A stretch of 40,925 nt of DNA from a virus, in the IMG/VR virus record IMGVR_UViG_3300010883_000099, positions 1 through 40,925 of that record; one strand, written 5' to 3'. Below the pieces are notes generated by a model, which was not told the DNA's origin, did no database searches, and saw only the letters and a list, made by a program, of their open reading frames with translations. The stretch's first letter is position 1. Each line of letters starts with the position of its first letter. Both the position numbers and the translations under genes were made by a program. Positions 10,694-40,892 of this stretch are shown one piece after another.

Positions 10694-10725
10694 AAGTAGT
10701 GCGAGGCTTCATATACAGGTGACTG
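10694..10725 (+). promoter_or_regulatory. TATA promoter, first copy of a 32-nt promoter repeat
   Basis: The segment carries TTCATATACAGG (10708-10719) and is 29/32 identical to 10954-10985. The TATA word begins 43 nt before ATG 10751. About 25 nt from TATA to the transcript start would leave a leader of some 12-15 nt containing AAGGTGA, a Shine-Dalgarno. The conserved bases before TATA could include a BRE. Confidence 0.75.
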
Positions 10726-10750
10726 CTCTGGTCAGGTTAAGGTGAATGAA

Positions 10751-10954
10751 ATGGGCAAAATAATTTTCAACGAGCGAGGACTGATTAGAACATACGAATG
10801 TACTTGTGGCGGCGACTGCGAACCCAGCGAGATGGGAGTCCGGTGTTACACATGTGGCGCTGGGGCAGAATGGCCACCAATGAGTGACGCATACAATGAC
10901 ATGTTCGACCAACTGGTAGCAGACATTGAAGAACGCAAGAACAACGAATCTTGA
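10751..10954 (+). CDS. Small zinc-ribbon-like protein (67 aa)
   Basis: ATG 10751 is preferred over GTG 10742 because AAGGTGA (10738-10744) then sits as a ribosome-binding site. Four or five cysteines arranged as YECTCGGDC...VRCYTCGAGAEW form a plausible zinc ribbon, followed by a helix (YNDMFDQLVADIEERK). No family is recognised. It has its own promoter, and the promoter of the next tiny gene starts at its stop codon. Such small zinc proteins are often regulators or inhibitors; here this is only a possibility. Confidence 0.65.
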   Translation: MGKIIFNERGLIRTYECTCGGDCEPSEMGVRCYTCGAGAEWPPMSDAYNDMFDQLVADIEERKNNES

Positions 10955-10985
10955 AGTAGTGCGACACTTCATATACTGGTGACTG
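10954..10985 (+). promoter_or_regulatory. TATA promoter, second copy of the 32-nt promoter repeat
   Basis: TTCATATACTGG lies at 10968-10979, 44 nt before ATG 11012. The repeat differs from the copy at 10694 at only three positions, and identity runs on both sides of TATA. The leader carries AAGGAGG (10998-11004). Confidence 0.78.
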
Positions 10986-11011
10986 TTAGGGTGACACAAG
11001 GAGGAACCAAA

Positions 11012-11260
11012 ATGAGTATGAAAATATATGTTGAAGCAAACAGCAGAGCGGCACTCAATCGCCGTCTCGCAGAAGGTGAAGTCATAGAGGGTCGTAACTA
11101 CTCGATGTTCGCTCCGGCAACTGGGCCGGACCGCGCGGGTATGCATACCCTTGACACTACACTCGCATCGGGAACGCTGATAGCCATTTACTCACAGATG
11201 AGCGGCGGCAACCCCGTCAGCAAGTCGTGGGGCACATGGAACGGCATCAACGCAGTTTGA
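11012..11260 (+). CDS. Small protein of unknown function (82 aa)
   Basis: ATG 11012 has a near-perfect Shine-Dalgarno (AAGGAGG, 10998-11004) and lies downstream of its own TATA promoter. ATG 11018 is an alternative. The N-terminus (KIYVEANSRAALNRRLAEGEVI) looks like a strand-helix-strand; the rest is rich in Gly, Ser and Thr. There are no cysteines, membrane segments or recognised motifs. Strong individual promoter and ribosome-binding site suggest high expression independent of the neighbouring structural operons. Confidence 0.65.
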   Translation: MSMKIYVEANSRAALNRRLAEGEVIEGRNYSMFAPATGPDRAGMHTLDTTLASGTLIAIYSQMSGGNPVSKSWGTWNGINAV

Positions 11261-11268
11261 GACCAACT

Positions 11269-11282
11269 CTTAAGAGCGTGGG
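11269..11282 (+). promoter_or_regulatory. CTTAAGAG-class promoter before the glycosyltransferase
   Basis: CTTAAGAGCGTGGG begins 29 nt before ATG 11298. The same word with one change (CTTAAGAGGGTGGG) begins 30 nt before the helicase ATG at 29462. The spacing places TTAAGA where a TATA box would give a leaderless transcript, and no Shine-Dalgarno is present. Confidence 0.5.
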
Positions 11283-11297
11283 CGTCTCCCGCAATCT

Positions 11298-12626
11298 ATG
11301 GGAGAGTCGCTAGACATTCTATGGGGGTCGGAGCAACCGACCCGGCACACTGGATATGGACGAGTCTCACGCGAATTAGCCAAGCGCTGGGTGGCCAACG
11401 GGCACACAGTCAATTGCATAGGGTGGGACTATACTGGAGAGCCGTTCGAGCATGTTGAAGGATGGACTATGCTGGACGCAGGACTCAAAGGATTCGGGAA
11501 CTGGCCAACGATGGGGGCAGAGTCCCCGACTGTTCTCGAGAAGCACTTGTTGAATATCAAACCAGATGTGTTCGGTTCGCTTATTGATATTTGGTTTACT
11601 GGACACATGATACAATCCACAAATGCTCTCGGCTGTCCATACATCAACTACGTGCCGATTGATGGAGTGCCATTTAGCGAACAGTGGAGCAACATGGCCC
11701 TGCAAAGTCACACGCTGACATTCATGTCCCAGTTCGGGCTAGATGTGTTCGACCAGCATGTTAAAACTCACAACGAGGCAGAACAACTGTTGCAACGTTT
11801 TGAGAACGACACACCTGTTTCAATCTATCATGGGGCAGACCTCGAGACGTTCCGTCCAGCGAAGGCGGGTGAGAAGGATGAGTTGAGAGAGAAGTGGGGC
11901 TTCCCGTGGGAGACAGTATTCCTCTCTGTTGCTCGCAATGTGAATCGCAAGCAGACCCCTCGATTACTTGAGGCATTACATCACCTTGTCTATGATGAAG
12001 GCGAGAAGGACGTCGGTTTAGTTATGCAATGCGGCGACCCGTTCGATACAACAAAGCAGGGGTGGAACTTACCTCAACTTGTGGCTCGGTATGGACTTCA
12101 GGGACATGTAGCATTCACGGACGACAATGATAATCCTCTTGTTGGGATGTCAACTGAACAAATGGCTGAACTGTACAGGGCATGCGATGTTCATGTTCTC
12201 GCGACCGGCGGTGAAGGGTTTGGAATCCCGACAGCAGAGGCATTCGCTAGTGAAATACCCGCAATATGTCCTGCGAACTCGACTGGGCCGGAACTTATCG
12301 GTGCGAATGAAATCGGCAAAGGAGATAGAGGCTGGCTTGCTGGATTGGATGGCAGAATTGTTGGCTCACAGTGGGGTGTTGAAATGGGTCTTGTTTCAGC
12401 CAAGCATTTGACTGATTGTATGAAGGATGCCACAGACGGGAAAGCAACGCACAAACTGGGTCAGACGGCACGGGAATGGGCTGTTGAAAACCTGAACTGG
12501 GACACTATTGCTGTGGAGTTTGAAGAACTATTTAGGTCAAGACTAGAAGAACCGCACCCACTGGGTGAACATGCGAATAAGGATAGATTACACGCCCTCT
12601 CACCGTTGTTGAGCCAACAGGGTTAA
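11298..12626 (+). CDS. GT4-type glycosyltransferase (GT-B fold)
   Basis: The 442-residue protein shows a GT-B pattern. The N-terminal half opens with DILWGSEQPTRHTGYGRVSRELAKRW, where the glycine turn and following helix are typical. The linker to the C-terminal domain reads VSIYHGADLETFRPA, followed by VFLSVARNVNRKQTPRLLEAL. The nucleotide-sugar site is marked by ACDVHVLATGGEGFGIPTAEAFAS, an E-x7-E type motif near residues 305-315. Members transfer sugars from nucleotide donors with retention. The gene follows a CTTAAGAG promoter and lacks a Shine-Dalgarno, so the first codon may be the transcript start. With the pyruvyl-transferase-like gene it forms a small glycan set within the virion genes, perhaps glycosylating capsid, tail or adhesin proteins. 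The substrate is unknown. Confidence 0.85.
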   Translation: MGESLDILWGSEQPTRHTGYGRVSRELAKRWVANGHTVNCIGWDYTGEPFEHVEGWTMLDAGLKGFGNWPTMGAESPTVLEKHLLNIKPDVFGSLIDIWFTGHMIQSTNALGCPYINYVPIDGVPFSEQWSNMALQSHTLTFMSQFGLDVFDQHVKTHNEAEQLLQRFENDTPVSIYHGADLETFRPAKAGEKDELREKWGFPWETVFLSVARNVNRKQTPRLLEALHHLVYDEGEKDVGLVMQCGDPFDTTKQGWNLPQLVARYGLQGHVAFTDDNDNPLVGMSTEQMAELYRACDVHVLATGGEGFGIPTAEAFASEIPAICPANSTGPELIGANEIGKGDRGWLAGLDGRIVGSQWGVEMGLVSAKHLTDCMKDATDGKATHKLGQTAREWAVENLNWDTIAVEFEELFRSRLEEPHPLGEHANKDRLHALSPLLSQQG

Positions 12627-12638
12627 AATAGCGGTTCT
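12622..12638 (+). promoter_or_regulatory. Late-type promoter before tail operon (TTAAAATAGCGG class)
   Basis: TTAAAATAGCGGTTCT starts at 12623, exactly 31 nt before ATG 12654, duplicating the arrangement at 4572/4603. It marks the start of the tail operon and implies a leaderless transcript. The TAA inside TTAAAATA is also the stop of the glycosyltransferase. Confidence 0.72.
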
Positions 12639-12653
12639 GGTCTCGGTCACACA

Positions 12654-13052
12654 ATGGCAGTACATGAGTTCACTGGCGTCACCGGTAAAATTACTGTAAA
12701 CGGCACTTTGGTGGCGTTTGTTTCAGGCGATGTGACGATGGCAATAGCAACAGGAAAATACACAGTACTTAACTCAAATGCGGCGAGTAATAACACTCGA
12801 GGAATCCGCACAGTGTCGGGTACACTTAAGCGAGCGTGGGGAGTCGCAGATACAACTCTTTACGATTTGATGATGAATGACACCGAGTTCGCTATTATGT
12901 TCGACAATGACGGAGCGACTGGCACGCATACTTACACAGCAAGCGGTTGCGTCATCACAGAACTATCGGTTGAAGGTCTTGAGGCTGGAAGCGAGAACGC
13001 GTTGATGATAAACGCATCATTTGAAGGACTCAACTTCGGTCGAGACGCCTGA
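12654..13052 (+). CDS. Major tail (tube) protein
   Basis: The 132-residue protein is mostly beta: KITVNGTLVAFVSGDVTMAIATGKY, RTVSGTLKRAWGVADTTLYDLM, CVITELSVEGLEAGSENALMINASFEG. This resembles small siphovirus tube proteins, in which the ITELSVEG...INASFEG end is a repeated theme. Position before the chaperone pair and tape measure agrees. It is the first gene of the tail operon, with a leaderless-type start. Confidence 0.75.
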   Translation: MAVHEFTGVTGKITVNGTLVAFVSGDVTMAIATGKYTVLNSNAASNNTRGIRTVSGTLKRAWGVADTTLYDLMMNDTEFAIMFDNDGATGTHTYTASGCVITELSVEGLEAGSENALMINASFEGLNFGRDA

Positions 13053-13074
13053 TGATTGAAGAGGATGTGACGGG

Positions 13075-13428
13075 ATGAGTTGGTTAAACAAAGCATTAGA
13101 GAAGGGACGACTCCCTATTGTGGTTGACGTCACTGATGTCGGCCTAGTGGATGATAACGATAATCCCGTCAATGAACTCACGGTTATTGCCCTATCAATG
13201 GGTGAGTATCAAGTTCTCAAGGCTGAACCAGAGATTGCGAAGTTGTCAGGACAAGACCGAGATGAACTTCTCGGCATCCGAATCACTTTTGAAATGTTAG
13301 CGAAGGCAGACCACTCGCTAAGGTGGTCGGAGTACAAACAACTCCCGATTGCTACACTTACAGGACTGGCAGGCAAAATTGCCGAAGTATTTGGAGGAGA
13401 GGCAGGTGGTGTCTTGGGGGAATCGTAA
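13075..13428 (+). CDS. Tail assembly chaperone, upstream (G-like) ORF
   Basis: The 117-residue protein between tail tube and tape measure has a beta N-terminus (LPIVVDVTDVGLVDDNDNP) and a helical C-terminus (YQVLKAEPEIAKLSGQDRDELLGIRITFEMLAKAD). In long-tailed phages this position holds the gpG/gpGT chaperone pair that binds the tape measure. A second open frame, -1 relative to this one, overlaps its end and continues to 13622. The call rests on position and on this architecture rather than on residue similarity. Confidence 0.65.
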   Translation: MSWLNKALEKGRLPIVVDVTDVGLVDDNDNPVNELTVIALSMGEYQVLKAEPEIAKLSGQDRDELLGIRITFEMLAKADHSLRWSEYKQLPIATLTGLAGKIAEVFGGEAGGVLGES

Positions 13429-13622
13429 CAGAGGCCCGCTCGGACTCCGCAATGTTTTTTCTCCAATTCTTAGCCTACATGGGCTGGACGCTCGAAGACT
13501 TTCGAGCATTGACTACGCTCGAAGCAACATGGTTTATGGAGGCGTTTAGCGAGTCCAACAGGAGGGAACGCGCTCAACATGATAAGGCACAATCAAGACG
13601 GCGACGTAAAAACATGAGGTGA
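13075..13622 (+). CDS. Predicted -1 frameshift fusion product (GT-like tail assembly chaperone)
   Basis: If ribosomes slip back one base at 13416-13422, translation passes from the first chaperone frame into the frame that ends at 13622. This gives about 182 residues: the first ORF to VLG, then GIVTEARSDSAM and the downstream part with FFLQFLAYMGWTLEDF and a basic tail (RRRRKNMR). Alternatively the downstream part may be translated alone from ATG 13452. The downstream frame is open back to 13323, so slippage is not blocked by a stop. Confidence 0.55.
13416..13422 (+). promoter_or_regulatory. Candidate -1 ribosomal frameshift site (GGGGGAA)
   Basis: In the upstream frame the codons read TTG GGG GAA TCG TAA. 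The G run lets the GGG codon re-pair perfectly after a one-base backward slip, and the Glu tRNA could re-pair on GGA with one G-U pair. The stop of the first frame follows two codons later. It is not one of the most common heptamers, so the site is a candidate only. Confidence 0.45.
13452..13622 (+). CDS. Tail assembly chaperone, downstream (T-like) ORF
   Basis: The 56-residue segment (from ATG 13452) holds FFLQFLAYMGWTLEDFRALTTLEATWFMEAF followed by a basic tail. An aromatic helical block like this is typical of the T part of tail chaperones, which binds the tape measure. It ends five bases before the tape-measure GTG. It is more likely made as a frameshift extension of the ORF at 13075 than alone, because no ribosome-binding site precedes the ATG. 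Confidence 0.6.
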   Translation: MFFLQFLAYMGWTLEDFRALTTLEATWFMEAFSESNRRERAQHDKAQSRRRRKNMR

Positions 13623-13626
13623 TATT

Positions 13627-15909: not shown

Positions 15910-15925
15910 GCGAGGCGGGTGAAAT

Positions 15926-28906: not shown

Positions 28907-28933
28907 TCCTTCTGGTGTGGTCCTTAGGGAGAG

Positions 28934-28959: not shown

Positions 28960-29018
28960 GTGTGTTCGACAATCAACCGGCTACGTTAATTCAATAGGAT
29001 GACATAGTAGTCATAGTG

Positions 29019-29030
29019 TTCATATACTGG
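29019..29030 (+). promoter_or_regulatory. TATA promoter (TTCATATACTGG), start of the replication region
   Basis: TTCATATACTGG lies 44 nt before ATG 29063, the same distance as for the genes at 10751 and 11012. AGTAG upstream of TATA (29006-29010) also resembles those two promoters. A short leader with GGCGGAG (29053-29059) as a weak Shine-Dalgarno is implied. Confidence 0.75.
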
Positions 29031-29062
29031 AACCCTCTAAGGTAATACAGAGGCGGAGAAGA

Positions 29063-29428
29063 ATGACAGAACAGATAATTGAAGAGACAGGATACACACT
29101 GAAATACGGTGGCAAGGATGATGAATGGGACGGATGTTATCGTGGCTTTTACATCTTCTCCGATTGGACACAAACCGCAATTCACATGGGGAGCGGACGA
29201 CCAGATTCATGGGTTGGACTTGACGCTAAGGGCACAATCGGCGCAGAAGGTCATTGGTTTCACGGGTCAGAAAAGTGGAGTCAATCCGCCAAAATGTACG
29301 GACGTTTCATTGGCGACACAGAGCGACTAATCAAACAGATGGAATCCAACCTTGAAGAATCCGACTTGGATGATGAGACGAAAGCAACAGTCAAAGAGAT
29401 TTGGACAACGCGTGGTCAGTATCAGTGA
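29063..29428 (+). CDS. Hypothetical protein (121 aa)
   Basis: The gene has its own TATA promoter and a short leader with GGCGGAG. The first ~75 residues are aromatic and probably beta (YTLKYGGKDDEWDGCYRGFYIFSDW, TAIHMGSGRPDSWVGLD). The C-terminal ~50 are helical and acidic (RLIKQMESNLEESDLDDETK). I recognise no family. It stands first in the replication region, so it may be an early protein. Confidence 0.65.
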   Translation: MTEQIIEETGYTLKYGGKDDEWDGCYRGFYIFSDWTQTAIHMGSGRPDSWVGLDAKGTIGAEGHWFHGSEKWSQSAKMYGRFIGDTERLIKQMESNLEESDLDDETKATVKEIWTTRGQYQ

Positions 29429-29431
29429 ATC

Positions 29432-29445
29432 CTTAAGAGGGTGGG
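29432..29445 (+). promoter_or_regulatory. CTTAAGAG-class promoter before the XPD-like helicase
   Basis: CTTAAGAGGGTGGG begins 30 nt before ATG 29462 and matches 13 of 14 bases of the element before the glycosyltransferase (11269-11282). The placement indicates a leaderless start and argues against the in-frame GTG at 29441. Confidence 0.5.
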
Positions 29446-29461
29446 TCGCTGGGGTCTAGGC

Positions 29462-31186
29462 ATGGCGCTGGTGAGAATCAATATCCCATCACGTGCAACC
29501 TTGCCAGACTTGTGGGATGAAATAGAGGAGCATTTTCCTCATCCATCCCCCCGTCCGGGTCAACGCGAGGCGCTTAGCGTCATACGCTGGGGTCTGCAGA
29601 ATGATGAGTTCGACAACATTGTGATTCAGGCACCGACTGGAATCGGCAAATCCGCTATCGGCATGACACTCCAGTCCATGTTCAATGAGGCGTATGTTCT
29701 AACTCCAACACTGGGACTGACGGAGCAATACCGCAGGGACTTCGGACACATCATGGCTGAAGTGAAGGGCCGCTCAAACTTCCCGTGTTGGATTCAATCA
29801 GGAACTGCTGATGGTGCTCCGTGCTATCGCACAAAGGGTAACTGTGCGCATGTCAAAGAGGATGACCCGTGCCCATACTACGCACAGCGATATGAAGCCG
29901 AGAAGCATCGACTGGTCTTGTCTAATCCATCATACATGTTTAGGGTGCAACAGGGGAGCGAATGCTTCGGCCAACGAGATGTAGCAATCATTGACGAGGC
30001 TCACAAGGTTGAGACGTTTTTCCTCAACTTGATGGATATTGTCATCAGTACTGTGGACTGGCAACTGGTCAATGGTGGAGGCAGCAGTCTGCCATTTCAC
30101 TATCACCCACACGATTGGCCAGAGGACATCACTAAGTTGCACGATGGAGCAAAGCGAGGTTTGGAGTTGGCTGTTGATGATGACGACGACCGCAAAATCA
30201 AACAGTTCCGCACCTTAGCGTCTAAGACAGCGACTTTAGTTCAGTTGTTGCAAGACCCTGATAACTGTGTTTGTGAATCGAATGCAACTCAAGCACAATT
30301 CAAACCGATTCGCGTTAGCCAGTTTGTTCCAGATTACCTCGACTTGTTGGCTCGCAAGAGGGTGTTCATGTCTGCTACAATTCTCGATGTTGATACATTT
30401 GTGAAGAACATCGGGATTGAGGACCAGAATACTCTGTATGTCAACATCACTAAGTCCCCGTTCCCGCCGGACAATTTCAACGTGTACTACTCACCGTGTG
30501 GTCCGATGTCATACGGACGCAGGAAGCACACAATCCCGAAGCAAGTCACAGCAATTGCTGCCATCATCAATCACTACTCCGACAAGCGAGGCATCATTCT
30601 CCCTCACACGCATGCTATCAGGAGAGAGATTGTGCAAGGTCTGGAGGATGCAGGACTTGGTGATAGAATAATGACTCACGGCGAGGATTCAAGGAGTCGC
30701 ATGATTGCTGTTGAGAAGTTTTGCACTGAACTGCACAAACCCTGGGTCCTTGTCTCAACGTATGTTGGCGAGGGATTCGACTTCAAAGGTGATATGGCAG
30801 AGTTCCTCATCGTCTGCAAAATACCATACTTGTACACACCCGACCCTCAAATCCGGCAACGGATGGAACAGGATGAACACTCATGGAGAGACAAACACGA
30901 GGGAACTCCCGAGTGCCCGTATGAGCCGCCGAGCAAGTACACTAACGGGATGTGTGGCTCATTCATGTGCCCACAGCCGTGTCAAAGTTGGGCAAAACTC
31001 CAGACGACAACTAGGCTAGTCCAGATGATGGGGCGTATTGTGCGCACGCCGGATGATGTAGGCCACATGTTTATTCTTGATAGGGCATGGGACCGATTCT
31101 TGAAGAATCACGGGAGTCTTTTGCCCCTGTGGTTCAAGAACGGGCTCAAGGGTCCGCCGAATTGGTTGAAAAAGCATTTACCTTAA
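29462..31186 (+). CDS. XPD/Rad3-like superfamily 2 helicase with Fe-S type cysteines
   Basis: I chose ATG 29462 from promoter spacing. The 574-residue protein has all main SF2 motifs: Walker A APTGIGKSA (residues 57-65), Ia TPTLGLTEQY, DEAH box IIDEAH (~176-181), motif III MSATIL, motif V VSTYVGEGFDF, and motif VI QMMGRIVRTPDD (~521-532). Between Walker A and DEAH, cysteines C109, C121, C128 and C137 sit as in the 4Fe-4S domain of XPD/Rad3/DinG helicases, which unwind 5' to 3'. A second four-Cys group (C485, C498, C503, C507) lies between motifs V and VI, which is not usual in the family. Probable role: unwinding during viral DNA replication or repair. Confidence 0.87.
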   Translation: MALVRINIPSRATLPDLWDEIEEHFPHPSPRPGQREALSVIRWGLQNDEFDNIVIQAPTGIGKSAIGMTLQSMFNEAYVLTPTLGLTEQYRRDFGHIMAEVKGRSNFPCWIQSGTADGAPCYRTKGNCAHVKEDDPCPYYAQRYEAEKHRLVLSNPSYMFRVQQGSECFGQRDVAIIDEAHKVETFFLNLMDIVISTVDWQLVNGGGSSLPFHYHPHDWPEDITKLHDGAKRGLELAVDDDDDRKIKQFRTLASKTATLVQLLQDPDNCVCESNATQAQFKPIRVSQFVPDYLDLLARKRVFMSATILDVDTFVKNIGIEDQNTLYVNITKSPFPPDNFNVYYSPCGPMSYGRRKHTIPKQVTAIAAIINHYSDKRGIILPHTHAIRREIVQGLEDAGLGDRIMTHGEDSRSRMIAVEKFCTELHKPWVLVSTYVGEGFDFKGDMAEFLIVCKIPYLYTPDPQIRQRMEQDEHSWRDKHEGTPECPYEPPSKYTNGMCGSFMCPQPCQSWAKLQTTTRLVQMMGRIVRTPDDVGHMFILDRAWDRFLKNHGSLLPLWFKNGLKGPPNWLKKHLP

Positions 31187-31226
31187 AATGCACAACCACA
31201 CTATATCAGGTCGCCTATTAGGAGTG

Positions 31227-31247
31227 TTCATATACTGCGGCAGTATA
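31227..31247 (+). promoter_or_regulatory. TATA promoter overlapped by a perfect palindrome (candidate operator)
   Basis: TTCATATACTG (31227-31237) begins 30 nt before ATG 31257. TATACTGC (31231-31238) and GCAGTATA (31240-31247) form a perfect 8+1+8 inverted repeat that covers part of the TATA box. A dimeric repressor bound there would block TBP. The TATA box lies inside the longer ORF that could start at 31188, which is why ATG 31257 is the better start. Confidence 0.7.
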
Positions 31248-31256
31248 GGGTTAGTC

Positions 31257-32414
31257 ATGGCGAACCACCTAACGATACTGGCTAGGCAGTGGAAATCTGC
31301 AGACGAGAATGATGAATTACCCGAAGCGCTCTATGATGCGCTGGTCGGAGAGAACAACACCGCGTATGAACGCAGAGTCATTAAGGCTCTATCACGCGCA
31401 ACGAGAATAGTGAACAATGATGGCTCTATTCGGGACTTCTCCGAACTGGTCAAGGATTGGGAATACAGTCACTCCGTCTATGGGCATACTTCGGTATGTC
31501 AGGCCTGTGGCAAAAAGGACATCGTGCAGAACTGCTATCTCAAGAACAAAGAGGACGGCGTGACTGAACTAATCGTGGGCAGCACCTGCGTGTTCCGATA
31601 CATGGAGATAGTGATTGACGGTATACTACTCGAGGGTGAGGAAAAAGAGGAGTGGCTACGAGTTGAAATGAACGCGGCCAAGCGCGAGTTCCGCAGACAA
31701 ATGTTTTTGGCTAGATACCCGACAGTCATGGGTGACCTCGAACGATATGAACCACTCACGCACCACTACAGCAACTTCGGCGTCAAGAGGACTTACAGGT
31801 ATCGCTACAACCCCATAGGCAAACTCTTCAAGGCAATGGGTAAGAGAATGGTTAAGTTCGGTTATCCCGGACCTCAACTAGAGGATGATTGGGCCCGATT
31901 TATGAATAGCGCCGAAGACCGACTTACTGAACACAACGATTTCATGGAGGAGGCTAACAAGGAGCGCCTAATTCGAGAAGAGAACTCACGCCTACTTCAA
32001 ACCGAGCGAGAAGACCGCTGGACATTGGAGTTGGAGCGACAAACAGCAGAACGCGATGAGAAGGCAAGTGACTTCCTCACCCACACCGCACCACTAGAAG
32101 CGACAATGAACCAGTGGGAACAGAACGCTCGGCTACAAATCGCTGACAGACTCCGCAAGGGCACTCCACTACGAGGATACACGAACACGGTCAAGGAGTG
32201 GCAGAATCGCATCTCCGTCATGGACGGGGCAGAGGTGGAGCATCCGGTATTCAAACAACTAGAGGAACTTGACGAGTCCACACTCAACGACTGGGAGAAG
32301 AACTTCAGGCAATCAATCATGGCTCGCCTCGCAGGCGGTCGCGAATTGACTAAGAAGCAAGCGTCGGCCATCGCACGAATGATGAAAGGCAAGGCTGGCT
32401 CAATCGCAGAGTAA
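31257..32414 (+). CDS. Phage-type Cys-motif protein with coiled coil (385 aa)
   Basis: ATG 31257 fits a leaderless start 30 nt after TTCATATACTG. The N-terminal ~120 residues hold CQACGKKDIVQNCYLKNK, then LIVGSTCVFRYM, a CxxCG...GSxC pattern seen in many phage proteins of unknown function and probably zinc-binding. The middle (~200-280) is a long charged coiled coil (RLIREENSRLLQTEREDRWTLELERQTAERDEK). The end (FRQSIMARLAGGRELTKKQASAIARM) is a helical unit often found with the same Cys motif. Its place among replication genes suggests an accessory DNA-metabolism role. I do not recognise an enzymatic domain. Confidence 0.65.
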   Translation: MANHLTILARQWKSADENDELPEALYDALVGENNTAYERRVIKALSRATRIVNNDGSIRDFSELVKDWEYSHSVYGHTSVCQACGKKDIVQNCYLKNKEDGVTELIVGSTCVFRYMEIVIDGILLEGEEKEEWLRVEMNAAKREFRRQMFLARYPTVMGDLERYEPLTHHYSNFGVKRTYRYRYNPIGKLFKAMGKRMVKFGYPGPQLEDDWARFMNSAEDRLTEHNDFMEEANKERLIREENSRLLQTEREDRWTLELERQTAERDEKASDFLTHTAPLEATMNQWEQNARLQIADRLRKGTPLRGYTNTVKEWQNRISVMDGAEVEHPVFKQLEELDESTLNDWEKNFRQSIMARLAGGRELTKKQASAIARMMKGKAGSIAE

Positions 32415-32442
32415 TTCATATACTTGGGGGACCCACGTCCCC
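32415..32442 (+). promoter_or_regulatory. TATA promoter followed by an inverted repeat (candidate operator)
   Basis: TTCATATACT (32415-32424) begins 31 nt before ATG 32446, directly after the upstream stop. GGGGAC (32427-32432) and GTCCCC (32437-32442) form a perfect inverted repeat with a four-base spacer, between TATA and the expected transcript start. This is a classic repressor site position; if the transcript is leaderless the repeat acts as DNA, not RNA. Confidence 0.7.
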
Positions 32443-32445
32443 TTC

Positions 32446-34440
32446 ATGGCAGACATTGTGGTTCAGCAATCCACAGAATCATCCAGCGTGTACAATACAG
32501 AGGTTCAAGGTCACGATGTCAAACTTCAGTTCTTGAGCGCCAACAAAGGTCGACTCGAGTTCATGGTTAGTGTTGCTGGCAAGTCAGTCGGCAAGTTCAA
32601 CTTATTGAGCCAACATTCGATTCGAAGGATAGCGAAGCCGGGTGGCATTCCTGAAATCGAGATTGACCAGTTTGTGGCTGACATGGTTCAAGTCGGCGTC
32701 ATGCTCAAAGAGGGTAACTTCAAGCCAGCGGAGAAGCGCAACAAGAGTGAGGAGGGCAGTGACGACTACAAGGGCAAATCATCCTCAATGGGACCGATTG
32801 ACGAGGCAGTGTGTGACGACTTCCTGATGCAGCCAGACCTCATTCTCCGCATCTCCGACATCATGCATCATTCGAGACCTGAACCGTTCATCGGTGACGA
32901 GTCGAACTTAATTCTCACTTTTCTGGTCATGCTGTCATGCAAAACAGGCTTTCCGCTCAACCTTGAACTGATAGGTCAGTCTGCTTCTGGAAAGACGTAC
33001 ATGGCGCTCACTGCTCGCAACGCAATGCCCCCGTGGATGGTGTCTGTGTTAGCAGGTGCTAGCCGCGAGGCTCTTAAGTATGACTATGACGAAGTGGATG
33101 CCGAAGGCAACTTCATTTCATACGTTGACGGGAAATGCATCATCATTCTTGAGAAGGATGATTCACTAGCATTCATGCGAAGGATGAAGCCGTTAATGTC
33201 GGGTGACGATGATGAACTCATCTGGAAAACTCCACTACGTAACGAGTTGACTGGAGAGATTGAGACAAAGTCATTCATCATCAAGGGTCAGCCGTCATTC
33301 ATCACGCTGACATGCCGCAACCCGAAGGAGGAGGAGCAAGTAACGCGACAACTGTTGATGACTCCCGACACTAGACCAGAGAAGGTCAAGGCGGTTGTAG
33401 CGGGGTCCTTGATGGCTCGTGCCCGCCCTGAAGAGTTGGCTCTCCATGAGGACCTCGACTTGTGTCAAGCATCAATGGGGAGACTGGACAAGTATCAAGT
33501 CAGGAACATATTTGCTCCGCTACTGGTTGAGTTCTTTCCAGCGCGAAGTGCTCAACATCAACGCGATGTGAAAAAGGTTCTCTCGATTGTTGATTCACTC
33601 GCAGTGCTCCATCAAAAGCAACGACCAAACGAGGACATCAACGGTGAGATGTATGTACTTGCATCAATTGAGGACAATATCCTCGCACTGGCTCTGTCGG
33701 ATTTGGTTCTTAGGGCATCATTGAGCGGCGTCCCTGACGACACTTGGATGGTGTTCTTAGAGATGTGCAAAATGGAGGAAGCAGGTCGCTCGCTCACGGA
33801 GGACAGTATTCTCCAATGGCTTCACATTCACGCATTCAATTGCTCAAAGCAGATAATGAAGGAGAAGTACTTGAACACGCTCGCAGATGCTGGGTTGTTG
33901 GAGGTATCAAACAGAGGTGGGGGCAGAGGTGGAGCGCGCAAGACATGGCGCATTGTGCACACCAGACGGAACCTCATTGAAGCGTATGCACTAACCCCTC
34001 TCTTTGTTGCAGAGGTGAAAAAGTCATTACCGTCTGTGATGGCAGAGTTCAGCGATGTACTAGTGAGTGCAGAGCCCGCTGAATCACATGTTGGGATAAA
34101 TCGCAGACAGAAGAATCAGTTGAGCGATATGGGCATTACCGAGATGGATGTGGCGTGCTCACTTGTGTACTCACAATACCTGACATGGGATGGCAGAGGT
34201 TCAGTCATTCATTCAATGTTTTCCGGCACGAAGGCACAACAGCACTTGTTTACTCGAGAGCCAACTTGGATGAAGCCAGACAAAGACGAGACTGGATTGG
34301 AGGTTGGACTGGAGAAGCATAACGCTCTGCAACAACGACTCAAGGATGGGTCAACTGATATTGCTGCGGATGATGGCGATTACTGGGATTCACTACTTGA
34401 TGCACACGATGAGGGCTTCGATGGAGAAGTTGACAGTTGA
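32446..34440 (+). CDS. MCM-like / AAA+ ATPase, probable replicative helicase
   Basis: The 664-residue protein starts 31 nt after its TATA box. Residues ~120-400 hold an AAA+ core: Walker A LIGQSASGKTYMA (~175-187), ASREALKYDY after it, Walker B CIIILEKDD (~231-239), a sensor-like TLTCRNP, and a possible arginine finger in VTRQLLMTPDTRP. A helical domain and a winged-helix region (~475-515, KEKYLNTLADAGLLEV...RKTWRIV) follow. This resembles the helicase module of MCM-like proteins and of helicase-primases of mobile elements, where the motor is followed by a wHTH. Lack of a DnaB-type domain and the archaeal gene set favour the role of replicative helicase. Family assignment is tentative. Confidence 0.6.
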   Translation: MADIVVQQSTESSSVYNTEVQGHDVKLQFLSANKGRLEFMVSVAGKSVGKFNLLSQHSIRRIAKPGGIPEIEIDQFVADMVQVGVMLKEGNFKPAEKRNKSEEGSDDYKGKSSSMGPIDEAVCDDFLMQPDLILRISDIMHHSRPEPFIGDESNLILTFLVMLSCKTGFPLNLELIGQSASGKTYMALTARNAMPPWMVSVLAGASREALKYDYDEVDAEGNFISYVDGKCIIILEKDDSLAFMRRMKPLMSGDDDELIWKTPLRNELTGEIETKSFIIKGQPSFITLTCRNPKEEEQVTRQLLMTPDTRPEKVKAVVAGSLMARARPEELALHEDLDLCQASMGRLDKYQVRNIFAPLLVEFFPARSAQHQRDVKKVLSIVDSLAVLHQKQRPNEDINGEMYVLASIEDNILALALSDLVLRASLSGVPDDTWMVFLEMCKMEEAGRSLTEDSILQWLHIHAFNCSKQIMKEKYLNTLADAGLLEVSNRGGGRGGARKTWRIVHTRRNLIEAYALTPLFVAEVKKSLPSVMAEFSDVLVSAEPAESHVGINRRQKNQLSDMGITEMDVACSLVYSQYLTWDGRGSVIHSMFSGTKAQQHLFTREPTWMKPDKDETGLEVGLEKHNALQQRLKDGSTDIAADDGDYWDSLLDAHDEGFDGEVDS

Positions 34441-34449
34441 TATACGTGG
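34437..34449 (+). promoter_or_regulatory. Variant TATA promoter (TTGATATACGTGG) with leader and Shine-Dalgarno
   Basis: TTGATATACG overlaps the upstream stop codon and begins 46 nt before ATG 34483. GAAAGGAG (34471-34478) is a good Shine-Dalgarno, so this unit belongs to the leadered group, unlike the two preceding promoters. Confidence 0.6.
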
Positions 34450-34482
34450 GACGCAAGGGTGTGGATTACCGAAAGGAGTTAA

Positions 34483-35517
34483 ATGATAATGAGTAAATTG
34501 CCAAAATACGCAGAGAAGAAGTTGAAGCCGTACATCGACAAAGGTGTACGAGAAGGGCTATGGGAGGACAACAGTGTCGTGACAGACATGTTCTCAACAA
34601 AGGCCGATGAACTGTCAAGCACCCTCGATGAGATGGGTGGCATTGACAGTGAAATCGGACAAGCCTTCATTGTGGACGCGGTCACGATTGACCTGTCCGC
34701 TATCCTTCGACAGAAGAAGTACACAGCAGAAGTAGAAGTATGGGAGGTCACCCACGCAACAGTCGGACAAGCATCCGGCAACCCGCGTGACGCATGCTGG
34801 ATTTACGGACAAGCAACAGTAGAGGCCGGAGACGATGTAATGGACCCGGCCATGTTCCAGTTGAGTCTTTGGGGTTCGGATGTGAACATCGCTGACGATA
34901 TCGAACGAGATGGGACTTACAGAATCATCGTGTCTTGCCGCGACTTGAACAAGGATGTACTAGACTTACAAACACTCGCTGGGATGAGCAAGTTTGCTCC
35001 ATCAAAACACAAGCACAGCGACCGACTACAGATGATGAAGGACACATTCGAAGTGAGCGACATCGCTGACTTGATGGACGACACCAGTCGAGGCAGATTG
35101 GATTTCCGACTCATTGAAGGCACAGTCTCATACGCAGGCGTGCAGAACACTCGCAAGGGTGGACAGATGGGCAAAATGCTACTGAAGGATGAGTCCACAA
35201 CCACGCTTGAAGCAATCGAGACCGGTGAGACTCTTCTCCTATCATCCATTACCTCAACTGACATCGCCGGCAGATTCGGCAAGTACAGCAAGGTTCTGGT
35301 CCTCGCCACAGTTCGCAATGACGCACGATGGGGCCTTAGCGCCGATGTGAAGTGTTGCGAGGCAATCACTCTCGTAGCACCCCCAGCCCCACAGACGGCT
35401 GTCAGCGGTGACGACTCCGGCGACAACGCAGAGGACTACTTCAGTGAGACCGTCACGGATGGCAAAGACAAGAGCAAGGGCAAGGGCAAGGATGGCGACT
35501 GGGAGCAGTGGGAGTGA
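34483..35517 (+). CDS. OB-fold single-strand DNA-binding protein candidate (RPA/SSB-like)
   Basis: ATG 34483 and ATG 34489 both follow GAAAGGAG. The 344-residue protein has a helical N-terminus, then two regions with strand patterns of OB folds: ~70-155 (KKYTAEVEVWEVTHATV, FQLSLWGSDVNIADDIERDGTYRIIVSCR) and ~205-295 (FRLIEGTVSYAGVQNT, KMLLKDESTTTLEAIET, KVLVLATVRNDARW). The end is low-complexity and charged, closing in GDWEQWE, like the acidic C-terminal tail of SSB proteins that recruits partners. Good expression signals and a place before a RecA-like gene agree with a single-strand binding protein. There is no zinc finger as in some archaeal RPAs. Confidence 0.55.
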   Translation: MIMSKLPKYAEKKLKPYIDKGVREGLWEDNSVVTDMFSTKADELSSTLDEMGGIDSEIGQAFIVDAVTIDLSAILRQKKYTAEVEVWEVTHATVGQASGNPRDACWIYGQATVEAGDDVMDPAMFQLSLWGSDVNIADDIERDGTYRIIVSCRDLNKDVLDLQTLAGMSKFAPSKHKHSDRLQMMKDTFEVSDIADLMDDTSRGRLDFRLIEGTVSYAGVQNTRKGGQMGKMLLKDESTTTLEAIETGETLLLSSITSTDIAGRFGKYSKVLVLATVRNDARWGLSADVKCCEAITLVAPPAPQTAVSGDDSGDNAEDYFSETVTDGKDKSKGKGKDGDWEQWE

Positions 35518-36449: not shown

Positions 36450-37618
36450 TGGTTAAAACACCTTACTTGAGCGCATCCAGACTTAAGTTGATGAAGGACT
36501 GCGAACTGTCCTACTGCCTCCGATACGACCCTCCTGATGCAGAGACCCGTGCCTTGCGTGACCTCGCAGGGCACCCATCGTCTATGCAAGCAGCCTTCAA
36601 TGGCACGAACGTCCACACAGCACTTGAGGATTGGGTGAATGAGGGCAGTGTTGCTATGGGCAGACTCATGGAGTTGTATGACCGAGCGTGCGCTAACAAC
36701 CCAGTGGACTTTGACTTCTATGAGGACGGTCAGCGCATGCTACGTCGCTGGTTCAATTCTCGAGGAATGTCAAGACCTCGCGTGATTGGGTGTGAGGTCC
36801 CGATGGGGGCACATGACAGCCCGTATATGACAGACAATAACGTCCCGATATTCGGTTACATTGACCTCATCATTGAGGAAAAAGACGGGACAATTCACCT
36901 GATAGATTACAAAACTCAAAGAGCGCCGATGAGCCAAGCCGAAGCAGACAACAGTGTGCAGGCAGGAATATACTTGGTGTGGGCACGGGAGAATTATCCT
37001 GACGCACCGCTCAAGTTTTCATTTGACTTGACCCGATACGGTGTAGTATCGACAGAGTGGAGCGACAAACGGATTGCTGACTTTGCTGGTTGGCTGAAGT
37101 TGCAGTTCCAGTATGTGAGTGACTTGGAGAACCCGAAGCCGACAATTGGCGAGGGGTGCAAGTGGTGCCCGTACATGGACATTTGCCCAGCAGCAAAGAG
37201 AATGACAAAGGATGGGGTGTGGGACCATGTCGTTCAGCCAGACTTGCCAGAGGAGCAAGGAGACATGATTGATGAACTCCAGAGAATTAAAGCAGTGAAT
37301 GCTATGATGAGTCGCAAGAAGCGAGCGATTGAACAACACCTCAAGGAGAATGTGTTCGGCTGGAACACACACCCTGACGATTGCAAACTAGAGACGGAGG
37401 ACTGGGATGTTCATTGGGCAGAGCAGGAACGCAGGGAGTACTCGATGCATGAATTGGTTGAGGCTCTGCCGCCAAAAGTGATTGCGACAATCGCTAAGGT
37501 GAGGAATGCGGACCTTGAACGGATAATACCCATTTTGACTAATGAACAGGCCGATGCGGTGCAACGCGCCCTAATCGTTAAACCACAGCGAGCACTGCGA
37601 GTTAAGCGACGTACATGA
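36449..37618 (+). CDS. Cas4/RecB-like PD-(D/E)XK nuclease with Fe-S type cysteines
   Basis: ATG 36449 overlaps the previous stop (TGATG). The 389-residue protein opens with LSASRLKLMKDCELSYCLRY, a standard start for PDDEXK_1 nucleases. Core residues are H56, D139 in GYIDLI, D153 and K155 in LIDYKT, and Q171 in the QAGIYL helix. C237, C240 and C246 (CKWCPYMDIC) with C18 or C23 make the four-Cys set of an iron-sulfur cluster as in Cas4 and AddB. An additional helical C-terminus (~260-389) is not explained by Cas4. Together with the SSB and Sak4-like genes it would form a resection and recombination set. Confidence 0.82.
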   Translation: MVKTPYLSASRLKLMKDCELSYCLRYDPPDAETRALRDLAGHPSSMQAAFNGTNVHTALEDWVNEGSVAMGRLMELYDRACANNPVDFDFYEDGQRMLRRWFNSRGMSRPRVIGCEVPMGAHDSPYMTDNNVPIFGYIDLIIEEKDGTIHLIDYKTQRAPMSQAEADNSVQAGIYLVWARENYPDAPLKFSFDLTRYGVVSTEWSDKRIADFAGWLKLQFQYVSDLENPKPTIGEGCKWCPYMDICPAAKRMTKDGVWDHVVQPDLPEEQGDMIDELQRIKAVNAMMSRKKRAIEQHLKENVFGWNTHPDDCKLETEDWDVHWAEQERREYSMHELVEALPPKVIATIAKVRNADLERIIPILTNEQADAVQRALIVKPQRALRVKRRT

Positions 37619-37875
37619 AATCCCCGTCGAGACGAGTCAAGCGGCTATGGCAAACAATGGTCGATGCAGGCTGTTGCACGGATGAAGGCAACAGTATGTC
37701 CACGAGAGAGATACTCGCTTTGCCCGGACAACCGTTCACAATGAATCAACTGTCGAATCATCTAGCAGGAAAGCCTCGAATGTTTGAGCGAACTGGAAAT
37801 GTTAGAGTGCAACAAGTCACGGGTGAGGCGACATATCCGATGGCAACATGGTTAGCAATCAATGGCGCATTGTGA
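37615..37875 (+). CDS. Small protein, possible helix-turn-helix DNA binder (86 aa)
   Basis: The start overlaps the nuclease stop (ATGA). The product is basic at the N-terminus (KSPSRRVKRLW), and the middle STREILALPGQPFTMNQLSNHL could form a helix-turn-helix, followed by a possible wing (RTGNVRVQQVT). Small DNA binders often control early genes, and two possible operators lie in this region. The fold is a guess from pattern only. The PCNA promoter begins just after its stop. Confidence 0.55.
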   Translation: MKSPSRRVKRLWQTMVDAGCCTDEGNSMSTREILALPGQPFTMNQLSNHLAGKPRMFERTGNVRVQQVTGEATYPMATWLAINGAL

Positions 37876-37879
37876 GCAA

Positions 37880-37890
37880 TTCATATACTT
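37880..37890 (+). promoter_or_regulatory. TATA promoter (TTCATATACTT) before PCNA
   Basis: The word begins 31 nt before ATG 37911, matching the leaderless promoter at 32415 exactly in spacing and in the TTCATATACTTGGG extension. This spacing decides the start codon of the PCNA gene. Confidence 0.75.
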
Positions 37891-37910
37891 GGGATTGTGA
37901 CGATGAGAAT

Positions 37911-38726
37911 ATGAACACCCCGAACCAGAACTATGAAGCAGAATTAGATGTCCGCGTGGATTCAACCTCGCTGGCAGAAGCACTTGACGTCGTTGCTTTG
38001 GACTCACCCGCTGTTCCAGTGAAGTGCGTCTTTGACAATGACGGGATGACTGTGTGGACACATGACTCCGCACGAACTATTCAGGTGTGCGTGGACACAT
38101 TCCCCCTGAAGGACTACAGGACCGTCAAGGGCAATTGTGCCGTTGTTGTGAATCCTGACACGATGAGTACTCTACTCAAGTCTAAGTTCACCGGAACAGT
38201 TGAGTTGAGCGCAGAGGACTCAAAGGTGAACATCAGGTCGAAGGGCGGCAGTCGCGTGTCTTACTTTGCCGCAGACGAGGATGAGTGTAACACAATCCCA
38301 GACCACTGGCGTCTCGGGGCTGATGACGGATGGGTGACATTTCCGATGTTAGATAACAAGAGAGCAACAACCAGAGCAATGGTGTCCGTTGATGAATTGA
38401 GTGCTGGTCTAGTTGATATGAAGGTCAGTGGTGCTCCCTATGTTGTGTTCACCCTGAATCCGGGTGACAGTCCATCCTTCTGCCGTTCAGGCCACTGGGG
38501 TGCTAAGTCCACAGATTCACTAACCATTGTTGAGGCTGATGTTGAAGGCGAGACTATTGAGGTGTGTTTCACAACTGCCCTTCAGTCTGTACTACAGAGA
38601 TTTCCAGGTTCCTCAAAAGTAATGATACAGAAGCATGAGGACGCCCCATTCTTTGTGATGCACAGTCTGCCGGGCTCCGATGGTGACATACAAGTAGTTG
38701 CAACAGAAGCGGTACGTGAGGCTTGA
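37911..38726 (+). CDS. PCNA-like DNA sliding clamp
   Basis: Promoter spacing picks ATG 37911 over the upstream start at 37848. The 271-residue protein has the size and double-domain course of PCNA: an N-terminal helix STSLAEALDVVALDS, strands with VKCVFDNDGMTVWTHDSART, FPLKDYRTVKGNCAVVVNPDTMSTLLK, an interdomain connector near ~125-150, and a second half with MVSVDELSAGLVDMK, VEGETIEVCFTTALQSVLQRFPGSSKVMIQKHEDAPFFVMHSL, where the final pattern corresponds to the strand-helix-strand of domain 2. As a trimer it would tether polymerase and other enzymes. Two window proteins end in PIP-like motifs that could bind it. The call is by fold pattern; residue identity to cellular PCNA looks low. Confidence 0.7.
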   Translation: MNTPNQNYEAELDVRVDSTSLAEALDVVALDSPAVPVKCVFDNDGMTVWTHDSARTIQVCVDTFPLKDYRTVKGNCAVVVNPDTMSTLLKSKFTGTVELSAEDSKVNIRSKGGSRVSYFAADEDECNTIPDHWRLGADDGWVTFPMLDNKRATTRAMVSVDELSAGLVDMKVSGAPYVVFTLNPGDSPSFCRSGHWGAKSTDSLTIVEADVEGETIEVCFTTALQSVLQRFPGSSKVMIQKHEDAPFFVMHSLPGSDGDIQVVATEAVREA

Positions 38727-38971
38727 TGATAATGTGGGACCCCAACTCGGACCGATTCGATGTCAAGCAAGCAGAGGACCTCCTCGACATGACAGACTTT
38801 GAGCGCATGGTTGTGCGCAATGCGGCCATGTTGGACTTACTATTGGCTAAGGGTGACATTACAGAAGACCAAATTAACTTGGCCTACGAACAGCGACTGC
38901 GTCAACAACTGCGAGAGGCTCGGGATAACCTGAACCGTCTCGTGGGTGATGATGAGAATGTTGTTGAGTGA
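38726..38971 (+). CDS. Small acidic helical protein of unknown function (81 aa)
   Basis: ATG 38726 overlaps the PCNA stop (TGATG); ATG 38732 is also possible. The protein is acidic and helical (KQAEDLLDMTDFERMVVRNAAMLDLLLAKGDITEDQ, then a charged helix YEQRLRQQLREARDNLNRL). The gene is sandwiched between PCNA and primase, so it may be a small replication accessory factor. No motif is recognised. Confidence 0.62.
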   Translation: MIMWDPNSDRFDVKQAEDLLDMTDFERMVVRNAAMLDLLLAKGDITEDQINLAYEQRLRQQLREARDNLNRLVGDDENVVE

Positions 38972-40127
38972 TGACCCAGAATTGTTGGACGCAGTCCTGA
39001 CGCATTTCAACCTCAACTACTTTCCTCGCTCCATTGGCAATCCTCGACAGAAGTTTGTCTATGCATCGGAGGAGGTCTGGCAAGCACTTCAGCATTGGGA
39101 GGGCGACTCCTGCTTCATCAGCACATGTGGCTACGATGATTTCACTAGAGAGAACGGCAAGACCATACCTCGCAAAGTTGTACACTCCTCAACATTCCTC
39201 GACTTCGACCACAAGACCAAGCCAGAGAATGCTCTAGCAGATTCCCAGAGGGTGTCGCAGTTCTTGCGACAACACAACATCGCACACTGGGTTCAGTTCA
39301 GTGGGTCTAAGGGGTATCATGTACACATCATGCACAAGCCAGTCACATTCAGGTTTCATTGGAGCGACGGGAGTGCTGATGCACTGAAGGCCATGATATA
39401 TCAGTTTCAAGACCACTTGCGACAGACACTGGGTCTGAACACAATGGATGAGTCCACGATGGGAGATGCAAAGCGTCTATGCAGAATCCCCTTCACACTC
39501 CACCCGAAAACTGGACTATTCGCTACACCGATTGACCCTGAACTTCTCGATGGAGCAGAACATTCGGTGGTGGCGGGACTTGCACGAACAGCAGAAGTCG
39601 AATTGCCAGTAATACGAGGTGAGTTGTTGACATTGCCCGAGACTATCGGCAAAATCGGTATGATTCTCGAACGCCCGGAGGCTAAAATCCGTCCAATTAT
39701 CGACCAAGAGGTGTCGCTCAACTCTGCATCAGCAAAACGATTCATTGCTTCTCTCGGGTTGAACTGTCCCGGTGTTGTCAATGAACTCAAGCGGCGCAAT
39801 CCCGGACACAAAGCACGCGTCTATGCGGCTATACACGCAAAGTTGATGGGTTACTCTGTCAATGCCTTAGAGGCTGTATGGTTGCAATTGGCGGCAAGTT
39901 GTGGGTATGTTGACGCATCCAACACAGAACACAGGTTGTACCAGATGGGGTCAATCATTAACAACCCTTCAATTGAGATGTTCCCCACTTGTACAACACT
40001 GAAAGCCAATGGCTGTTGCATAGGAGATACATGTCCGAAGTATGTCGACATGGATAATGGTTATACCCCTCGCACGGTGAAGCGCCAGTGGAGGCGAAAG
40101 AGTGCTAACGGAGAAGGAGTTGGCTGA
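38949..40127 (+). CDS. Archaeo-eukaryotic primase: PriS catalytic domain fused to PriL-like Fe-S domain
   Basis: Starts at 38949, 38952 or 38958 are all possible and overlap the previous gene. The catalytic part has the AEP signatures: FLDFDHK with the two metal-binding aspartates (~residues 84-89), FSGSKGYHVHI (~117-127), and GDAKRLCRIPFTLHPKTGL (~172-190), typical of PriS. The C-terminal ~125 residues look like the PriL Fe-S domain: LNCPGVVNELKRRNPGHKARVYAAIHAKLMGYS, then FPTCTTLKANGCCIGDTCPKY, with Cys at ~273, 348, 356/357 and 362 for a 4Fe-4S cluster. Cellular archaea encode PriS and PriL separately; fused forms occur in mobile elements. The enzyme would make primers at the viral fork. 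Confidence 0.82.
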   Translation: MMRMLLSDDPELLDAVLTHFNLNYFPRSIGNPRQKFVYASEEVWQALQHWEGDSCFISTCGYDDFTRENGKTIPRKVVHSSTFLDFDHKTKPENALADSQRVSQFLRQHNIAHWVQFSGSKGYHVHIMHKPVTFRFHWSDGSADALKAMIYQFQDHLRQTLGLNTMDESTMGDAKRLCRIPFTLHPKTGLFATPIDPELLDGAEHSVVAGLARTAEVELPVIRGELLTLPETIGKIGMILERPEAKIRPIIDQEVSLNSASAKRFIASLGLNCPGVVNELKRRNPGHKARVYAAIHAKLMGYSVNALEAVWLQLAASCGYVDASNTEHRLYQMGSIINNPSIEMFPTCTTLKANGCCIGDTCPKYVDMDNGYTPRTVKRQWRRKSANGEGVG

Positions 40128-40869
40128 CTTCCTCAAGACTGCGAAGTTAGGTGAGTTACTCGCACGCATCCGTGAGATGAAGGACGAGAATGCCGATGAT
40201 ACGCAATTAGAGGCAATCAAGGACCGCATTGTCAATGTGATGTTGGAACGCAACCTCCAAGCAGACCATCGAGAGTACTGGGTGATGCTTGACTACATTC
40301 AAGAGGTCGGGTTTGAGGTTACTCACCTTGATACTGGAAGCGGGGACTATTCAAGCACAAAAGTGTCCATTGAGCGCAAAGCAGCCGACTTAGTCGGGTC
40401 GGTATGGGATGAGAGACTGTACAGACAATTGAGTATGATGACCGAGATGTCGGAGTACTCCTATGTTATCGTCACGAGGGATTATGCCAAACTCAAGTAT
40501 GACCTCTCCAAGCGAGGGGTGAATCCACAAGTGTTGCTCGGGTTCATTGCATCAATGTGTGCAATGGGCTATCCTCCCCTATTCATCCCAGACGAGTATG
40601 ATGCATCAGCACTCATTGCAAAACTGATTCACAAGCACGAGGACGACCACAACAGATTGTACTCGCCTCGACCAAAGAAGGCCACTCCTGAAGCATACAG
40701 GAATGCCATCATTGAATCGCTACCGGGTGTGGGTTACAAACTGCGAAGGAGACTTACAAAACTATTCCCGACAATAGAGTCACTAGTGGCCGCTCCAGTT
40801 TCCGAGTTGGTTAAAGTTGACGGTATCGGCGCTAAAATGGCAGATAGGATATTCTCTGCACTACATTGA
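40102..40869 (+). CDS. XPF/ERCC4-type nuclease with helix-hairpin-helix domain
   Basis: GTG 40102 overlaps the primase by 26 bases. The 255-residue protein has a helical N-terminus of ~55 residues. The ERCC4 nuclease core follows at ~60-170: TGSGDYSSTKVSIERKAADLVGS, with the GDY and ERKxxD signature (~81-96), and YSYVIVTRDY. A tandem helix-hairpin-helix ends the protein (LPGVGYKLRRRLTKLF, then VDGIGAKMADRIFSALH). This is the organisation of archaeal XPF/Hef nucleases without the helicase part. They cut branched DNA, and in archaea they bind PCNA. A role in processing viral replication or recombination intermediates is likely. Confidence 0.87.
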   Translation: MLTEKELADFLKTAKLGELLARIREMKDENADDTQLEAIKDRIVNVMLERNLQADHREYWVMLDYIQEVGFEVTHLDTGSGDYSSTKVSIERKAADLVGSVWDERLYRQLSMMTEMSEYSYVIVTRDYAKLKYDLSKRGVNPQVLLGFIASMCAMGYPPLFIPDEYDASALIAKLIHKHEDDHNRLYSPRPKKATPEAYRNAIIESLPGVGYKLRRRLTKLFPTIESLVAAPVSELVKVDGIGAKMADRIFSALH

Positions 40870-40880
40870 TAGTCAGACAA

Positions 40881-40892
40881 CTTAATATACTG
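40881..40892 (+). promoter_or_regulatory. TATA promoter (TTAATATACTG) of the next gene
   Basis: TTAATATACTG (40882-40892) begins 30 nt before ATG 40912. It differs by one base from TTCATATACTG at 31227 and has the leaderless spacing. Confidence 0.65.

Follow-up and report, generated by a model that had tools for sequence, protein, structure and literature searches.

Repeated viral promoters are already known in archaeal viruses, HF2 and SIRV2 among others. In the tailed halovirus HF2, near-identical TATA-like repeats of two classes (I and II; 58 and 29 bp, with the sequences TCTTTAAGTC and CGTCTNNTAGAG) are confined to viral intergenic DNA, their position is conserved across the genus, and their promoter activity has been demonstrated with a reporter (PMC8707807). 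In SIRV2, one consensus, consisting of a purine-rich upstream transcription factor B recognition element (BRE) and TTTAWATA, precedes many viral genes and marks those that are early and mostly small, and a predicted open reading frame (ORF) may be too long and enclose the promoter, its true start being further downstream (PMC11065993). Here we analyze a repeated word, TTCATATACT, in the 40,925-base linear virus record IMGVR_UViG_3300010883_000099 (the whole of which is called the window). On the evidence of alignments, the word is the local dialect of a gene-start signal common to a family of uncultured marine viruses that are probably archaeal. We consider it likely that this signal is a family-wide core promoter, spelled in each virus's own way, in which a TATA-like element and, usually, a G-rich box direct transcription from 30–31 nt downstream.

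The new features are the downstream box with its fixed geometry, a promoter class (class 1) that lacks an upstream BRE, the presence of two classes, and the family itself. As in HF2, the promoters are near-identical, TATA-like and restricted to viral intergenic DNA, in what is probably also a tailed virus of an archaeon; when compared by eye with the published repeats (PMC8707807), the sequences bear no resemblance, and the element described here has a 14-nt core, GGTGGG directly after the TATA-like part and 30–31 nt to the ATG, in viruses that are ~55% identical at the protein level. The window shares with SIRV2 (PMC11065993) the use of one consensus upstream of many genes and the burial of a promoter in an overlong predicted ORF, but class 1 differs by its missing upstream BRE, its downstream G-rich box and its replication genes; class 2 is closer to SIRV2. 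Late promoters of Kaposi's sarcoma-associated herpesvirus (KSHV) likewise combine a virus-specific TATA variant with a motif placed where TFIIB has its downstream element, and the viral pre-initiation complex needs this motif (PMC6541308). KSHV, however, is a virus of eukaryotes that supplies a TBP mimic itself and whose 5-bp RVNYS motif is loose (PMC6541308), whereas the box here is near-invariant and 19–20 family records yielded no homologue of TBP or TFB.

The repeated word in the window

TTCATATACT occurs five times in exact form, always on the + (coding) strand (10968, 29019, 31227, 32415 and 37880) and never on the − strand, against 0.038 copies expected under a second-order Markov model (Poisson P ~6e-10). 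No other 10-mer in the window is comparably enriched. Four of the five copies fall in the intergenic DNA, which amounts to 876 bp (2.1% of the window). The fifth (31227) is also intergenic when the gene start is placed at ATG 31257, which its orthologues support. Thus, like the HF2 repeats, all exact copies precede gene starts and none lies elsewhere on either strand, rather than being equally frequent inside genes.

Two copies with one mismatch (10708, TTCATATACA; 40882, TTAATATACT) and one with two mismatches (34437, TTGATATACG) complete the eight sites listed by an earlier sequence-only reading, which had proposed a repeated viral promoter; every position and spacing in that list was verified. 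Counted from the first T of the word, the chosen ATGs at 10751, 11012, 29063 and 34483 lie 43, 44, 44 and 46 nt away, and those at 31257, 32446, 37911 and 40912 lie 30, 31, 31 and 30 nt away. Allowing up to two mismatches across the window gave no enrichment (31 matches versus 27.3 ± 5.3 in shuffles). Loose matching is therefore uninformative, and neither 34437 nor 40882 can be claimed from the word itself. The 34437 site is established solely by the family profile described below (13.7 bits), and 40882 is an unproven promoter, as the record ends 14 bases from its ATG and the gene cannot be checked. The list was incomplete: it omitted two clear members, at 29432 and 11269, as well as a weaker pair at 4571 and 12622.

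A family motif at a fixed distance from the start

The helicase encoded by the ORF at 29441–31186 has ~80 relatives among IMG/VR contigs (52–58% identity), and gene order through the replication region is conserved among them. Since exact matches to the word are merely sporadic in these relatives, the word is not the conserved unit. Instead, every lineage carries its own repeated intergenic words, and a shared form (TTCATAAGGGTGGGG, TTGATAACGGTGGGG, TTCAAGACGGTGGGG, TTCATATAGGTGGGG and others) lies 30–31 nt upstream of orthologous ATGs; TTCATATACTTGGGG (32415), TTCATATACTTGGGA (37880) and TTGATATACGTGGG (34437) of the window align with it. Expectation-maximization from random starts recovered TTNATAANGGTGGG in 97 of 105 non-redundant orthologue upstream regions, with 91 of the occurrences starting within four positions. 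A degenerate form of the motif matched 125 sites in ~1.55 Mb, 98 of which were followed by an ATG at a distance of precisely 30 or 31 nt, while the reversed pattern matched none. Moreover, the family profile scored above 13 bits at 349 sites, compared with 6–21 for profiles with shuffled columns. An ATG opening an ORF of ≥60 aa lay 29–33 nt from the site in 146 of 213 non-redundant sites, and C or T preceded the ATG in 95% of these.

In the family alignment, the near-invariant 6-mer GGTGGG directly follows the TATA-like part and is more conserved than that part. The expectation that conservation would extend beyond a TATA box was thus borne out, but the family constant is this box and not the core CATATACT(G/T)G that had been suggested. 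Across the window sites the box reads TGGG, GTGGG or a degraded form. With genes held fixed, promoter words of the same virus are more alike than those of different viruses (0.471 versus 0.379; 0 of 2000 permutations), which fits one shared reader, though base composition could contribute. The pattern TTCATAANGGTGGGN{16,17}ATG was found in 75 stretches of IMG/VR; 49 of these belong to contigs that carry the helicase, and a further 12 to contigs encoding other proteins of the family (61/75). In a separate observation, the portal protein of an 8.6-kb IMG/VR contig (L031) is 100% identical to that of the window, indicating that this virus has been assembled more than once.

Of 137 ORF starts that have the motif, 135 show a pyrimidine just before the ATG, versus 52% of starts that lack it. 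As archaeal transcription starts favour a purine following a pyrimidine (PMC7289017), the A of the ATG is most likely the first transcribed base, which would make these genes leaderless. Consistent with this, C or T precedes the ATG at the four leaderless window sites, and an AT-rich TTNATAAN or TTCATATA begins 30–31 nt before the ATG, which agrees with the AT-rich TATA-like element ~26 bp ahead of the start in archaeal core promoters if, as we infer, the ATG is also the transcription start. The four leadered window sites have A before the ATG together with a Shine-Dalgarno-like sequence, and a pyrimidine–A step lies 30 or 31 nt past the first T (10739, 10998, 29049 and 34468). A single TATA-to-start distance therefore explains both spacing groups, in agreement with the earlier proposal that leaderless and leadered genes share one promoter. 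The two spacings hold within the window, but their balance does not carry over to the family: the leaderless arrangement accounts for 146 of 213 sites, whereas leadered sites with a Shine-Dalgarno sequence are a minority of 12 among relatives (first-ATG scan).

Two probable promoter classes and the genes behind them

Sites that have the TATA-like part and lack GGTGGG likewise peak at 29–32 nt before an ATG. Among them, class 2 (n = 41) is defined by an upstream TTGAT repeat ~16 nt away and by C(A/G)AAGCA just before TTGATAWR; a pyrimidine precedes the ATG in 41/41, and the genes appear leaderless. Class 2 ORFs are small, with a median of 117 aa, whereas the class 1 median is 342 aa (P = 1.6e-10). 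Upstream of the TATA-like part (−5 to −2), a BRE-like A occurs in 98% and 85% of class 2 sites but in 12–25% of class 1 sites at the same positions, so that class 2 has, and class 1 lacks, an A- or purine-rich BRE. Class 2, with its upstream TTGATATT repeat and CRAAGCA before TTGATAWR, probably relies on an upstream BRE of the normal kind. The form ATTGATATTnC(R)AAGCA-TTGATAWR with the 16-nt repeat was seen in relatives, in L052–L055, L032–L039, L047 and other contigs. By eye, 10708 and 10968 resemble class 2, as GTGCGAGGC and GTGCGACAC precede the word there, and the window sites are probably local forms of two promoter classes rather than of one word. Early transcription of the whole set, as first proposed, was a guess; the small-ORF promoters of class 2 are better candidates for the first transcribed.

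Class 1 promoters precede the helicase gene and those starting at 34483, 37911 and 32446, and an RFC gene in a relative; in the relative inspected closely (G010), none lies in the portal-to-tail block. The association with replication genes that had been noted from the sequence is thus upheld by the helicase and, through structure prediction, by two further products. The AlphaFold model of the 34483–35517 product (pLDDT 80) matches SSB and RPA in Foldseek (E 6e-7) with a low TM score over the whole chain, placing the likeness at the level of the OB-fold domain; the protein has an acidic tail and is predicted to be SSB/RPA-like. The 37911–38726 product (pLDDT 91) has a fold match to PCNA (E 4e-12) and is modeled as a PCNA-like sliding clamp. 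Neither of these two products had Pfam hits. The 32446 product (664 aa) carries an invariant Walker A-like motif and is a putative replicative ATPase. Sequence searches with it and with the 34483 product gave no convincing PDB or Pfam match.

The strongest site in the window (17.0 bits) is the class 1 promoter CTTAAGAGGGTGGG (29432..29461, +), 30 nt upstream of ATG 29462 of the XPD/DinG-like helicase gene. Because this profile site and the shared initial Met of orthologues both point to ATG 29462, we assign the true helicase start to it, and GTG 29441 to the promoter sequence. The automatic annotation overextends the helicase to GTG 29441 (29441–29461 in the window), and the same is seen in many relatives. 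Just upstream, TTCATATACT at 29019..29062 (+; preceded by AGTAGTCATAGTG) serves the leadered gene 29063–29428 (121 aa), with a predicted start at A29049 and the leader AGAGGCGGAGAAGA. Downstream, the copy at 31227..31256 (+) lies 30 nt from ATG 31257 of a leaderless gene for a 385-aa product, whose orthologues start near 31257 and not 31188. Two class 1-like promoters of leaderless genes follow the same geometry: TTCATATACTTGGGG (32415..32445, +), 31 nt from ATG 32446, whose orthologues are preceded by TTCATAAGGGTGGGG and similar sites, and TTCATATACTTGGGA (37880..37910, +), 31 nt from ATG 37911 of the clamp gene, a start backed by orthologues. Between them, the class 1 promoter TTGATATACGTGGG (34437..34482, +) precedes the leadered gene 34483, with a predicted start at A34468 and a 15-nt leader containing AAAGGAG. 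The possible promoter TTAATATACT near the record end (40882..40911, +) is 30 nt from ATG 40912.

Two leadered sites lie close together. TTCATATACA (10708..10750, +; upstream GTAGTGCGAGGC) precedes gene 10751–10954, with a T–A step at offset 31, a predicted start at A10739 and the 12-nt leader AAGGTGAATGAA; its 11 upstream nt are shared with TTCATATACT at 10968..11011 (+; upstream GTAGTGCGACAC), which precedes gene 11012–11260 with a predicted start at A10998 and the 14-nt leader AAGGAGGAACCAAA. The class 1 promoter CTTAAGAGCGTGGG (11269..11297, +; 11.6 bits) lies 29 nt from ATG 11298 of a glycosyltransferase gene (11298–12626; Pfam Glycos_transf_1). It is placed between head and tail genes and has a class 1 promoter to itself; the relatives G010 and G015 also encode glycosyltransferases. 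The weaker candidates CTTAAAATAGCGG (4571..4602, +; 32 nt before ATG 4603 of the prohead protease) and GTTAAAATAGCGG (12622..12653, +; 32 nt before ATG 12654) carry KTTAAAATAGCGG and have the 12-mer TTAAAATAGCGG in common, 31–32 nt from the ATG; they are possibly a structural-gene variant of the promoter.

The host is probably a marine archaeon, as suggested by the PCNA-like clamp, an AEP primase and ERCC4 encoded in the window, the RFC of a relative, and the PolB of relatives, whose best-covering matches are in haloarchaeal tailed viruses. A search of GTDB genomes with the helicase for a host returned no relative. Magrovirales, viruses of Poseidoniales, are tailed, have genomes of 90–110 kb and encode PolB, an AEP primase, a clamp, a clamp loader and an ERCC4 nuclease. 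Here, relatives have PolB and RFC, and the window has the PCNA-like clamp, primase and ERCC4, but the records, which may be incomplete, reach at most ~83 kb. A literature search found no paper joining magroviruses, or Poseidoniales, with promoters, and among the papers searched none reports promoters of the present viruses. Relative G010 also encodes an AAA (CbbQ/MoxR-like) ATPase and a CobT-like VWA protein near each other (L054:17710–19002 and L055:183–2411).

Possible readers of the G-rich box

In the mechanism that we propose, host TBP would most likely bind the TATA-like element (TTNATAAN/TTCATATA), which would begin ~30–31 nt before the transcription start, with the G-rich box immediately 3′ of it at most sites (GGTGGG in relatives). 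Transcription would start at a purine following a pyrimidine, 30–31 nt downstream; where this purine is the A of the ATG the mRNA would be leaderless, and where the ATG lies 12–15 nt further on it would have a minimal leader with a Shine-Dalgarno sequence. If transcription starts at the ATG, as we infer, GGTGGG occupies about −22 to −17, which corresponds to BREd, the element that TFIIB recognizes downstream of TATA (about −23 to −17). Eukaryotic BREd also directly follows the TATA box and has a GT-rich consensus, but its conservation is low compared with the near-invariant box here. Most likely, TFB contacts the box downstream of TATA, or a factor that the virus encodes or recruits binds there; the box would substitute for the absent upstream BRE and mark viral replication genes. 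This downstream TFB-side contact or viral partner is favoured because in eukaryotes TFIIB also recognizes an element downstream of TATA (PMC8461331), KSHV has a motif at that position, and TFB touches the DNA on either side of TATA (PMC4041446).

Several points weigh against this core-promoter mechanism. The start sites are predictions from sequence; the leadered sample from relatives is small (12), and its pyrimidine–purine step is weakly visible; and five window sites (10708, 10968, 29019, 31227 and 40882) have a weak G-rich box or none, so that not every site can require it. In addition, no TFB or TBP homologue was found in 19–20 family records. A viral general factor is therefore not evident, and a viral TFB or TBP was rejected as the reader.

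Alternatively, an activator or repressor encoded by the virus could bind GGTGGG, overlapping an otherwise ordinary promoter and setting class-specific timing; this is possible but clearly the weaker proposal. The 6-mer is near-invariant and more conserved than the TATA part, words are homogenised within a virus, and a repressor of repeated early promoters has been proposed for SIRV2 (PMC11065993); yet no candidate DNA-binding protein was identified, and the fixed abutment of the box to the TATA-like part speaks rather for a contact within the core promoter. It is unlikely that the viruses just use the ordinary TATA/BRE/initiator promoter of their host, with the G-rich box as the host's general consensus. 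The TATA-like element, the spacing and the pyrimidine–purine start are ordinary archaeal features (PMC7289017), but class 1 has no A-rich upstream BRE and most matches in IMG/VR come from a single virus family. Furthermore, TTCATAANGGTGGGN{16,17}ATG gave scattered, mostly bacterial hits among the 80 matches listed from 84,980 GTDB genomes, none of them in Poseidoniales (which were not searched directly), and 6 matches in 44 Nitrososphaerales genomes.

A bacteriophage σ70-type promoter with TATACT as the −10 box is very improbable. Although TATACT resembles a −10 hexamer, and AEP primases and DinG-like helicases occur in some phages, neither a conserved hexamer nor any information content is found 17 bp upstream in 79 and 105 aligned sites. 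The bacterial −35/−10 reading was rejected on this spacing; the TATA-like element also starts 30–31 nt before the ATG, and the PCNA-like clamp, RFC and halovirus-like PolB speak against a phage. We give equally little credence to the idea that the motif is no promoter but acts in translation, from within the mRNA leader: GGTGGG is G-rich and loosely Shine-Dalgarno-like, but at 16–17 nt from the ATG it is too distant for, and was rejected as, a Shine-Dalgarno sequence, and leadered genes in the window and in relatives have separate Shine-Dalgarno-like sequences near the ATG.

With the core-promoter mechanism preferred, we tentatively suggest that near-invariant GGTGGG replaces the upstream BRE at replication genes while small genes keep it, and that infection could be timed by a switch of the side of TATA that the TFB complex, or a viral partner, reads. 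The motif predicts exactly where transcripts begin at well over 100 genes of uncultured viruses, corrects gene starts such as that of the helicase, and is a near-diagnostic DNA signature of the virus family. It also makes archaeal use of a TFB-side element downstream of TATA, and viral takeover of host transcription, testable, and the two promoter classes offer a handle on infection timing without culture.

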